64,000 nucleotides of DNA from Streptococcus oralis subsp. dentisani (GTDB lineage Bacteria > Bacillota > Bacilli > Lactobacillales > Streptococcaceae), in NCBI RefSeq assembly GCF_007475365.1, contig NZ_CP034442.1, positions 310,001-374,000 on the forward strand. Reading direction: 5' to 3'. Positions 27,652 to 31,696 of the stretch are shown one piece after another. Numbering within the stretch: position 1 is the first letter of the stretch; every line of letters starts with the position of its first letter. The notes under the pieces were generated by a model. It did not search any database. It was not told the DNA's origin and saw only the letters and a program-made list of their open reading frames with translations. The translations under genes were made by a program, and so were the position numbers.

Positions 27652-27873
27652 ATTGTTGATATCTATTGCAATAAAATATCAAACGACTACTTCGACACCA
27701 CTGAGCCAGAAAGTAAGCTAGCTCGAATCATGTTTTCTTATTACGGGGCTCTCAATGCTCAGCTAAAAGGAGATGAAGCTCTTGCACGTAGTTTGTTTGA
27801 AAGCATTGCCCATGAAAATCCAGAGCTCTTTTGTGTTCAGGAAACGCAGAAATATTTAGAATCAGTGAAATGA
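27652..27873 (+). pseudogene. Truncated fifth copy of the TM-TPR paralogue (C-terminal fragment F)
   Basis: There is no start codon and the 5' body is lost. From about 27652 the frame reads [20 protein letters not shown] and continues to LESVK at a TGA (27871-27873). This is the same C-terminal ~60 residues as copies A-D. The junction with copy A (GTGAAATGAGAGTAA) repeats the junction between copies C and D, so F looks like the remnant of a C-like gene. Confidence 0.85.
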
Positions 27874-27882
27874 GAGTAACAT

Positions 27883-28698
27883 ATGAAATTAGTAGAAAAA
27901 AAAGTAAGTAGGGCGACAGAAAACACTCTTCTACAACTTGATAGGACTATTCTAATTTGCTCATTTTTAGTCTTGGTTGTTGATTTGATGGCAGTATTTT
28001 TAGTATTTCAAAGTAATTTGAAAATATTGGGACTCATATTATTAGTTATTGACTTTTTAGCTCTCGTCTTTGTATTTTATTTAAGATTTATATCTAGCAA
28101 AGTTGTTTATCTAATGTTAAACGATGCTATTAATCTTAAACTCTATGAAGACATGTTTAGGGTTCAATCTGAGAAATCGATTAAGATTTATAGAGCAACG
28201 TATCAAGAGTATTTTCAATTTATTCAGGGACAAGTGACTTATTTAAAAGGAGATTTTCAAGCTGCCAAGGAAAATTTTGAAAAAATTAATTTAAAAAAAG
28301 TTTGGAAGAGATTTAGTACAGACATATTCCTAAGATTAACTTATGGTCAATTGTTGGTTTCCATTCATCTTCAAGATGAATCAGCTATCACTTTCTTTGA
28401 GGAACAATTGTCCAAGGCGCCAGATTCGAAAGATGGTAAAGCTAAACTAGTCGCCCAAACTCAAGCCATAAAAGATATTGTGTTCAATAAAGAAGTGAAC
28501 GACTACTTCGACACCACTGAACCAGAAAGTAATCTAGCTCGAATCATGTTTTCTTATTACGGCGCTCTCAATGCCCAATTAAAAGGAGATGAAGCTCGTG
28601 CTCGTAGTTTGTTTGAAAGCATCGCCCATGAAAATCCAGAACTCTTTTATGTTCAGGAAGCGAAGAAGTATTTAGAAAACACTGATATAAGTTCGTAA
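27883..28698 (+). CDS. TM-TPR paralogue A
   Basis: 271 residues. Two membrane helices at about 21-43 and 48-69 with a short loop, then a soluble helical part with TPR-like pairs ([29 protein letters not shown] region), and a C-terminal conserved module from residue 206 ([11 protein letters not shown]... [20 protein letters not shown]). Predicted topology puts the TPR part in the cytoplasm. It is most similar to copy D (shared MKL(V/I)[13 protein letters not shown] start and nearly identical middle). Function unknown. Spacer and small ORF after it are repeated after copy B. Confidence 0.85.
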
Positions 28699-28776
28699 CT
28701 TGTGTCACTTATGTTGATGTGCACAAACAGGATAATAAGATTATGCAACAGTTAAATTTACTAACGAGATGAGATT

Positions 28777-29028
28777 GTGAAAGGTAGAGCTTGGAGAATA
28801 GGTTTAAAATTGGGGAAAGTGGGTCATCTCACTCAAACTTTTAATACAACTGGTGAGATAGTTGATAGTATCTCTAATTGGGTTATAGAGTATCCTAAAG
28901 AAGTAGTAATTGGAGGTATAGTAACAACTGTATTCTTCTTTGGTGGGAAACTTGTCACAGCTGGAGGTACTTTGCTAGCTCATTTAGCTAGTTTGTTTGT
29001 AATTTTTTATAGGAGTTTTTTATGTTAG
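28777..29028 (+). CDS. Small membrane protein of the paralogue cluster
   Basis: 83 residues if read from GTG 28777: basic start [17 protein letters not shown], then [20 protein letters not shown] and a second hydrophobic stretch [17 protein letters not shown] decayed copy follows copy B (29905-30066). No known family. The start is uncertain because the ribosome site is weak. The stop overlaps the start of copy B by 7 bases. Confidence 0.55.
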
Positions 29029-29828
29029 ATAATATTTCTAAGAATATCTCGAATTGGTCATCAGGTCGAATTTGCAGTATACTGGAGGTTTTTATTTTAT
29101 TTTATCTACGTTGGACAATTATTGCAACAGCAATTAGTTTATTATTCGTAAAATCGACCGTCGTTACTACATTATTGCTCATATTTCTAACATTACTGAC
29201 TATTATCGTTGTAATAACTCATTTTTTAGTAAATCACGTTGCTGAAGTTATTTTATACGAGCAAGTGAATTTTATAAAATATATTTCTCTTTTAACTGAA
29301 ACTTATGAAAGGCGGCCTGATAATAAAACAGGGAATTTAAATGCCTTAAATCTGGGTTTAGCTAGGTGTGCTTTCTATCAAGGGAATTTTAGTGAGGCAA
29401 TCCAATATGCTGAACGAATAAGAGTTAAACGTTCTAAATTGAATGTAAAAGGTATTTATGAACTAAATATCGTATTTATAGAATCATTATCATATCTTCA
29501 TTTAAGGGAGACAGATGAAATTTCTAAACTTTTAGTATCTTACGATTGGGAAAAAATTAAAAGAATTGATAAAAATAGAATGTTGGATTTAATTGAACCA
29601 GTATCAAAAATACTAAATGGAGAAGTTACAGACTACTTCGACACCACTGAACCTGAAAATAAACTAGCCCGAATCATGTTTTCTTATTACGGAGCTCTTA
29701 ACGCTCAGTTAAAAGGAGATGAAACTCGTGCTCGTAGTTTGTTTGAAAGCATAGCCCATGAAAATCCAGAGCTTTTCTATGTTCAGAAAGCGAAGAAATA
29801 TTTAGAAAAAACTGATATAAGTTCGTAA
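29022..29828 (+). CDS. TM-TPR paralogue B
   Basis: 268 residues with the same plan as copy A: two membrane helices (about 20-44 and 46-70), TPR-like repeats ([20 protein letters not shown] is a good TPR half) and the conserved C-terminal module from residue 203 ([11 protein letters not shown]). The N-terminal ~200 residues show little identity to A, C or D. ATG 29022 follows TAGGAG and overlaps the small membrane ORF. Downstream spacer matches the spacer after copy A. Confidence 0.85.
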
Positions 29829-29904
29829 CTTGCGTTACTTATGTTGAAGTACACAAACAGGATAATAAGACTATTCAACAGTTAAAACTACTAATGAGAC
29901 GGGA

Positions 29905-30066
29905 TTGTGGAAGGTATATCATGGAGAACAGGTATTAAAATCGGAGAAAGAAGTTGTTGCTACCGCTTTTGGCTTTGGAGTCTTGATAGCGATTCTAGTA
30001 ATTGTGAGCGCCTTCTTATATTCAAGTTCTACAATGGAGGATAATGGTGAAAGAAATATTAAATAA
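29905..30066 (+). pseudogene. Decayed copy of the small membrane ORF
   Basis: After copy B, the frame through 29950 reads KEVVATAFGFGVLIAILVIV, the counterpart of [16 protein letters not shown] in the small protein at 28777. The flanking spacers are alike too, but the middle is deleted and the start frame (TTG 29905 at best) differs. Its tail overlaps the start of copy C. Confidence 0.5.
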
Positions 30067-30886
30067 CTACTCGTTGAAAATATCTAGATTTGAAATTCCA
30101 AAATTATATAATTTGACAAAAATAGTATACATTTGTTTATTTCCTATAGTTTTTCTAGCATTTATAGGCATGGTTGTTGAATTATTTAAAGGTGGGGAAA
30201 TGAATTTTACGAAATTCATTTCTTATACGGTAGTATGTTTTGGGTTTGAGACATTGCTTTCATTAAACAATAAACTGGTTAAATTAGCTGTAGATAATAT
30301 CTTTTTGACAGATATTAATTTCGACAAGTACATAAGTTATTATCGTTATGTGGCTGAACACTCAGTTAAGTCTCAGCAACTTTTTAATAAAGCAAATTGT
30401 TTACTAGCTATTGCCCAATCGTCATACTACCAAGGAAAGTTTGAAGAATCGCTTGATAATTTGGAACGAATAAATTTTGAGGATAAAAATTTTAATAAGA
30501 AATTTGAGATCCAATTGTTCACAGCTTACTTTAAGATTCTTTCACTTATCCATGCTGATAAGACAGAGGAAATTTCGCACCAAATCGATATGTTAGCTAC
30601 ATTAAAAGTTCGAACAAATTCTCAGGTTGCTAGGAAGACGAATGTAATAAACATAATAAAAGCTATAGAGGATCTTGTTTTAAATAAAAGATCAAACGAC
30701 TACTTCAACACCACCAAACCAGAAAATAAGCTAGCTCGAATCATGTTCTCTTATTACAGAGCTCTCAACGCTCAGCTAAAAGGAGATGAAGCTCGTGCCC
30801 GTAGTTTGTTTGAAAGCATCACCCATGAAAATCCAAAACTATTTTATGTTCAGGAAGCGAAGAAATATTTAGAATTAGTGAAATGA
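30044..30886 (+). CDS. TM-TPR paralogue C
   Basis: 280 residues. Two membrane helices (about 25-47 and 56-75), TPR-like repeats ([21 protein letters not shown]) and the conserved C-terminal module from residue 218, here with small changes ([31 protein letters not shown]). The N-terminal body is unlike A, B or D. ATG 30044 follows GGAGG (30037-30041). The stop is 9 bases before copy D. Function unknown. Confidence 0.85.
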
Positions 30887-30895
30887 GAGTAATAT

Positions 30896-31696
30896 ATGAA
30901 ATTAATTGAAAAAATAGTAAGTAGGGCGACAGAAAATACTCTTTTACAAATAGAGACTGTTATTCTAATTAGTTCAGCTGTAGCACTAGCTATTGGAGCA
31001 GTAGGAGTTTTTTTAGAACACCAACCTGAAACAAAAAGGTGGGGGTTAATACTTGCTTTACTGATGTTGTTTGTAGCTATCTGGAGTTTATATCTACGTT
31101 TTGTCCTAAACAAAGTTATTTATCTAGTGTTAAACGATTCTATTAATCTTAAGCTCTATGTGGACATGTTCAGGGTTCAATCAGAAAAGTCTATTAAGCC
31201 CTTTAGGGCAACATATCGTGAGTATTACCAATTTATCCAAGGTCAAGTGGCTTATCTAAAAGGAGATTTTCAATCTGCCAAGGAAAATATGTCCAAGTAT
31301 AATTTGAAAAAAATTTGGGGTAGATTAAGAGACTATACATTTTTAATATCAACCTATGAACTATTAAAAGTTTCCATCCATCTTCAAGATGAGCGAGACA
31401 TTGCTTTCTTTGAGGAACAATTGTCCAAGGCGCCAGATTCGAAAGATGGGAAAGCTAAACTAGTCGCCCAAACTCAAGCCATAAAAGATATTGTGTTCAA
31501 TAAAGAAGTGAACGACTACTTCGATACCACAGAACCCGAAAATAAGCTAGCTCGAATCATGTTTTCGTATTACGGAGCTCTCAATGCCCAATTAAAAGGA
31601 GATGAAGCTCGTGCTCGCAGTTTGTTTGAAAGCATCGCCCATGAAAATCCAGAACTCTTTTATGTACGGGAAGCTAGGAAGTATTTAGAAAAATGA
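30896..31696 (+). CDS. TM-TPR paralogue D
   Basis: 266 residues; closest to copy A. Membrane helices at about 23-43 and 48-70 ([20 protein letters not shown]), TPR-like body and conserved C-terminal module from residue 206 ([17 protein letters not shown]). A 121-base block (31404-31524) is identical to copy A (28391-28511) except for one base, a sign of recent conversion or duplication. ATG 30896 is 9 bases after the copy C stop. A repeated spacer end follows and leads into truB. Confidence 0.85.

Follow-up and report, generated by a model that had tools for sequence, protein, structure and literature searches.

A stretch of 64,000 nucleotides from Streptococcus oralis subsp. dentisani (contig NZ_CP034442.1, positions 310,001 to 374,000; the whole stretch is referred to here as the window) carries a tandem array of related genes that is probably an island of immunity genes. 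The array lies between a DUF2130 gene (26338..27612; PF09903, 274 bits) and truB (31771..32649; assigned by open reading frame (ORF) and flank comparison), and all of these features are on the forward strand. Four genes are intact by ORF and alignment, namely A (27883..28698, 271 amino acids (aa)), B (29022..29828, 268 aa), C (30044..30886, 280 aa) and D (30896..31696, 266 aa); A and D belong to one type (A/D), and B and C represent types B and C. They are preceded by F (27614..27873), the relic of a gene of a further type, E, in which blastn against five type-E genes and against an S. infantis locus (L095) recovered a 5′ part reaching 27652 and a 3′ part at 27651–27873, with ~0.58 kb between them gone.

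The first-pass annotation had placed the four genes, the fragment and both flanks correctly, and had overlooked traces of toxin genes between them. These traces match LXG-like toxins of type VIIb secretion system (T7SSb) loci, in which we distinguish a constant toxin body from a variable C-terminal tip. A decayed stretch from the end of the toxin body follows A (28702..28820; 68% identity over 121 nt to the toxin gene of locus L038, E 1e-4; E 1e-3 to the L095 toxin genes), and overlaps an 83-aa ORF (28777..29028) that corresponds to toxin tip B without a body (88% over 77 nt to the toxin of L095 module 2, E 1e-23; tip similarity 0.67 to P0161 and 0.61 to P0189, both of which bear tip B on the constant toxin body). 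Similarly, a remnant of the toxin body end behind B (29834..29963; 76% over 131 nt to the L038 toxin gene, E 4e-22) overlaps a 53-aa ORF (29905..30066) that represents a shortened toxin tip C (89% over 102 nt to the L038 toxin gene, E 1e-34). No RNA family reached its gathering score in positions 22000–40000.

The encoded proteins combine a divergent N-terminal part of ~200 residues (hereafter the immunity body) with a nearly constant C-terminus. Identity to A is 73% for D, 37% for B and 35% for C, and is concentrated in the last ~62 residues. Among eight sequences picked to represent the different types, mean pairwise identity per 20-residue block was 0.16–0.31 up to residue 200, 0.68 at residues 201–220 and 0.88 at residues 221–260, which bears out both the variable bodies and the shared module of about 60 residues described from the first reading. 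The module spans 28501..28695 in A, where it starts at the D of an NDYF motif, and 31514..31693 in D (both from the identity profile), as well as 29631..29825 in B and 30698..30883 in C (both from identity and a step in synonymous divergence). An AlphaFold2 model of A (pLDDT, a per-residue confidence score, 90.6; pTM, a whole-fold confidence score, 0.85) is all-helical, with two long predicted N-terminal helices that are hydrophobic within residues 21–80, followed by pairs resembling tetratricopeptide repeats (TPR), the last of which would form the constant module. This model, together with TPR proteins as its nearest folds, fits the two N-terminal helices and TPR-like body proposed earlier; Foldseek returned nothing at E 0.001 or better, and Pfam TPR matches in the family are sub-threshold only. 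Furthermore, Pfam and NCBIfam gave no family over cut-off in A–D, PADLOC gave nothing convincing or above cut-off, and a sequence search of the PDB gave a single match at chance level (E 0.21).

Relatives at type VIIb secretion loci

A profile built from the four proteins detected relatives in 28 of the 147 genomes searched, that of the window included, of which 27 belong to the same genus and one to another family. A scan of named genomes yielded 28 loci, all in Streptococcus (for example S. infantis, S. oralis, S. cristatus, S. pseudopneumoniae, S. equinus and S. loxodontisalivarius), several of them being the same contigs as in the profile search. The family comprises 1057 clustered proteins at E up to 1e-3 among 7995 scored; few of the 120 entries listed are named, and all of those read ‘hypothetical protein'. 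Single distant members (~250–260 aa) occur in other streptococci (L051, L056, L062, L063 and others) with no recognised neighbouring toxin.

At six T7SSb loci a family member lies directly behind a toxin-like gene. A full-length toxin ORF (477–499 aa) precedes it at L038, L047, L095 and L108, and a truncated piece at L042 and L044 (222 and 246 aa, respectively). EssC-like, YukC, YwqH-like and DUF4176 genes are present in or near these six loci, with an EssC-like or YukC gene in or near each; the gene names EsaA and EssC are those that we take to apply, given the Pfam FtsK_SpoIIIE match at L038, BLAST comparison with L038 and position. The Pfam LXG cut-off (PF04740, 26.5 bits) is passed by the member-followed toxins of L047 (32.3) and L113 (60.0).

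Comparison of 77 toxin relatives with a recognisable boundary revealed a median similarity of 0.91 for the toxin body vs 0.37 for the tip, and the tips, which are hydrophobic, Gly/Ala-rich and ~50–70 residues long, fell into seven clusters (single linkage, similarity above 0.6). A further six of the 83 relatives, in which the boundary pattern is absent, were excluded: in five the boundary is slightly altered, and P0202 ends in another protein. The majority of the relatives (56 of 77) have lost N-terminal sequence, and their starts are mostly recurrent; these truncated modules (P0142–P0200) mostly begin at a few positions, as though they had truncation points in common or the positions served as start sites. 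An AlphaFold2 model of the toxin had a mean pLDDT of 43 and was discarded. L095 holds three tandem modules, in which a toxin gene, full in the first and N-truncated in the other two, precedes a family gene and a DUF4176 gene.

Cassette exchange and co-variation with toxin tips

The three L095 modules delimit the unit of exchange. In blocks of 60 nt, identity across the toxin body is mostly 93–100% (minimum 81%), falls to 25–62% across the tip and immunity body between modules 1 and 2 and between modules 2 and 3, and recovers to 70–100% (above 85% in most blocks) over the immunity C-terminus and on through the DUF4176 gene; between modules 1 and 3, which are both type A/D, the drop is smaller. 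Genes of one type compared across genomes point to the same boundary. Synonymous divergence (dS) was higher in the C-terminus (0.12–0.86, median 0.56) than in the body (0.05–0.23, median 0.105) in all 23 same-type pairs compared; these cover types B, C, E and G, share genomes and so are not independent, and do not include type A/D, T7SSb-linked genes, L101 or L043. The median dS of the flanking genes for these pairs was 0.83 for DUF2130, a value biased low by saturation and the omission of several pairs, and 0.90 for truB. In windows of 30 codons, the median synonymous difference was 0.00–0.24 in every window before NDYF and 0.42–0.56 in the first window after it for the four types, then 0.17–0.42 in the second, where type C drops back to 0.17. 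Low body dS, higher C-terminal dS and the step at NDYF together indicate that bodies moved recently between species and were joined to C-termini with another past. With the L095 profile, they further indicate that toxin tip and immunity body move as a two-gene cassette, one recombination arm of which lies inside the immunity gene. The step at NDYF is also what is expected of EsaG/TipC-type genes, whose mosaics switch partner at a conserved block. In type A/D, the bodies themselves have diverged and C-terminal dS is often lower than body dS. Recombination between cassettes in the service of immunity diversification, one of two readings offered at first pass, is thus pointing in the right direction, as are variable bodies on a constant end; the antigen variation offered beside it is not upheld, and the exchanged cassette extends into the adjacent toxin gene, a point that had gone unnoticed.

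Two array members can be placed directly beside toxin-linked relatives. Among the relatives compared, A is closest to the gene of L095 module 1 (body dS 0.14), and a gene of C's type follows the full-length toxin of L038, in genome G083 (body dS 0.13 to C). The constant module is under purifying selection (dN/dS mostly 0.03–0.2, up to 0.56), which argues that it is held by selection on the protein and not by exchange alone. Its dS within loci (median 0.46, n=22 pairs) is not below that between loci (0.43, n=278 pairs), so homogenisation inside the array does not explain the constant end. The bodies of same-type genes show dN/dS of 0.07–0.58, and those of B and C give 0.11–0.35 against their same-type relatives.

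To compare tips with bodies, similarity matrices of toxin tips and immunity bodies were correlated over 20 toxin–immunity pairs, giving r=0.85, a value reached in 0 of 20,000 permutations. Restricted to the 15 ToxA pairs, the tip–body correlation was 0.84 (0 of 20,000), against 0.20 for tip and immunity C-terminus (418 of 20,000) and 0.10 for body and C-terminus (3,206 of 20,000). The family therefore displays two attributes of T7SSb immunity genes, location directly 3′ of a toxin gene (at six loci) and polymorphism in step with the toxin C-terminus.

Insertion site and orphan status

The junction between DUF2130 and truB (27613–31770 in the window; L123–L142 elsewhere) is an insertion hotspot whose cargo differs strongly from one close genome to the next. 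Among 37 close genomes with both flanks on one contig, the gap is 12–16 bp in 14, 206 bp in one and 0.8–9 kb in 22, and the family occupies eight of these 22 filled sites. Among the remaining cargo are relatives of genes located behind other LXG toxins, namely P253 (as in L038) as well as IM241 and two DUF5085-type genes (as in L107), one of the latter above and one below the Pfam cut-off; several filled sites hold additional ORFs of no assigned identity. L132 (276–5047, genome G067) is a mixed island of immunity-type genes with a DUF4176 relic, P253, four consecutive IM241 paralogues and two IM153/IM156-like genes. An uncharacterised protein of ~410 aa, possibly another immunity protein, recurs at the site either alone or ahead of family members (L039 7034–8266, L124, L125), with no Pfam match at E 0.1. 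No obvious mobile element was noticed at the junction, in the course of work that included no search aimed at one.

The genome of the window (completeness 100) has no match to the L038 toxin except the relic before C and no match to YukC (PF10140) or LXG (PF04740), and its sole EssC match, 265 residues at 30% identity, is taken to be an FtsK-type ATPase. With only a toxin relic, no YukC, no LXG and no convincing EssC, the array is an orphan, and the genome shows what characterises an antitoxin island, clustered immunity-type genes where toxin and secretion genes are missing. YukC is likewise absent from six of the eight close genomes that carry the family at this site. Across 16 island loci we counted 32 open family ORFs of at least 240 aa, while the ToxA pieces there measure 53–91 aa. 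The ORF count omits shorter pieces (F and a 41-aa piece of L103), loci on contigs already counted (L097, L102 and L105) and two loci, L110 and L116, whose family content is a 93-aa piece or nothing, and it includes one protein each from L036 and L096 that are 99% identical to each other. Other LXG pieces, 499 and 246 aa long, also occur in one island, L046.

Proposed function of the family and comparison with known immunity systems

We consider it probable that the array is an orphan island of immunity (antitoxin) genes against LXG-like T7SSb toxins of related streptococci; the immunity function is what we infer, together with the neutralising activity, the membrane target and the binding of tip by body. 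Each gene would encode a TPR-like protein, anchored in the membrane, that shields the cell from one variant of a T7SSb-secreted toxin with a constant body and a variable, probably membrane-inserting tip. The toxin would insert this tip into the target membrane, where the matching family protein, anchored there, would capture it. The variable ~200 residues, comprising the membrane hairpin and the first helical repeats, are likely to recognise the tip, and the constant end of ~62 residues is likely to be a shared structural or partner-binding part. New variants would arrive as cassettes of tip and body through homologous recombination, with the toxin body as one arm and the immunity C-terminus, joined by DUF4176 in T7SSb loci, as the other; at DUF2130–truB the toxin parts would have decayed and the immunity genes been retained. 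A different toxin vehicle occurs at L052 (7103–16920), where three members come after an RHS-repeat protein of 2360 aa with a hydrophobic, Gly-rich tail, an arrangement suggestive of an antidote that tracks tip type rather than vehicle.

Several observations weigh against this interpretation. Over all 20 pairs the tip also correlated with the C-terminus (0.32, likewise reached in 0 of 20,000 permutations), tip and body agreed on the nearest neighbour in only 10 of 20 pairs, L108 is discordant (its tip is closest to that of L042 and its body to that of L044), and physical linkage by itself would yield some correlation between tip and body. The ToxA toxins of L038, L095 and L108 are not recognised by Pfam as LXG proteins, that of L038 being LXG-like solely through matches to LXG proteins at 24–28% identity (E near 1e-20). 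Distant members stand without a recognised toxin at several loci, and an LXG match is present in four of the eight island genomes (G019, G048, G078 and G083), so orphanhood is not general. Finally, a promoter and terminator scan of the array returned sites at chance frequency, promoter-like ones being no commoner than expected.

The same evidence bears on what else the family could be. It is unlikely that its members are toxin-specific export chaperones or adaptors, in which the variable half would hold the hydrophobic tip and the constant end would dock on the secretion machine or the DUF4176 protein. Such a role would suit a constant end joined to a variable tip-facing half, the TPR-like fold is common among chaperones and adaptors, members lie between toxin and DUF4176 genes, and a link between DUF4176 proteins and LXG export has been reported (PMC11481500, PMC10765036); however, in the six island genomes without YukC a chaperone would have no client, and the ORFs are open with dN/dS below 1. 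Intact ORFs also count against functionless remnants of a lost T7SSb effector locus, an account to which we give little credence even though F and both tips are decayed: four of the five family genes in the window are intact, dN/dS is below 1, and same-type body dS lies so far below that of both flanks that the bodies must have been acquired recently and not left behind.

The flanking of a variable cassette by constant arms, and the truncation of most toxin relatives at recurrent starts, would be expected of a silent reservoir of donor modules for toxin switching with no protective role. We give this even less credence, since the genome of the window has no T7SSb toxin to switch and it is the toxin parts that decay while the immunity ORFs are kept. 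A surface or host-facing antigen family diversifying under immune selection would likewise show variable bodies on a constant end, but members adjoin T7SSb toxin genes, tips co-vary with bodies and no same-type body dN/dS exceeds 1, which makes this account scarcely credible.

T7SS immunity islands and recombination between tandem paralogues are known already. EsaG and TipC are, like the array genes, tandem non-identical T7SSb immunity paralogues that recombine through conserved blocks and occur as orphan copies, with TipC arrays in S. mitis (Garrett et al. 2022, PMC9484751). By description rather than fold they differ from the family, TipC having a probable lipoprotein signal and facing outward and EsaG countering a nuclease; moreover, their blocks lie within the immunity gene and the downstream intergenic region, whereas those of the array family are the upstream toxin body and the immunity C-terminus, so that the unit spans two genes. 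T7SS antitoxin islands have been published, including staphylococcal ones with orphan ExiCD, membrane immunity proteins that act against a membrane-depolarising LXG toxin and also occur in genomes without toxin or T7SS genes (PMC12744356). ExiC and ExiD are polytopic and both required, in contrast to one gene per toxin with two N-terminal hydrophobic helices and TPR-like repeats.

Glycine-zipper LXG toxins that damage membranes are also known, namely TelE and EsxX (PMC10434224, PMC12744356). TelE of S. gallolyticus resembles the toxins described here in its variants, its hydrophobic glycine-rich C-terminus and its N-truncated orphan modules, but its partner TipE, a DUF5085 protein, lacks membrane helices (PMC10434224) and comes from a family shared with ExiA/B (PMC10434224, PMC12744356). 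Pfam found no DUF5085 match in A–D or in 68 family members, and the same library detects that family in L107 IM156 (above cut-off) and IM153 (below). TspA/TsaI and TelD/TipD likewise pair (putatively) membrane-depolarising LXG toxins with immunity genes behind them and a DUF4176 gene nearby (PMC9600955); TsaI and TipD belong to DUF443, for which neither A–D (E up to 1) nor the 68 members (E up to 0.01) gave a Pfam match. In the full-text literature searched, outside which most subscription papers and all preprints lie, no paper was found that names the family or a two-gene cassette with an arm inside the immunity gene; the family and its layout are thus the part that we have not found in print.

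More tentatively, the antidote may be modular for the sake of exchange: a constrained end of ~62 residues would accept any incoming body, as the toxin body would on the opposite side, and a single homologous exchange could then install a matched tip and antidote, or an antidote alone at an island, across species, with TPR-like membrane antidotes reading membrane-inserted tips. The analysis provides a function hypothesis for a large family and supplies matched toxin/antidote pairs whose specificity is testable. Furthermore, the recombination boundary is placed sharply within the immunity gene, so that it can be asked how polymorphic toxin pairs stay matched while they are shuffled, and the islands suggest how strains without the weapon keep pace with armed rivals.

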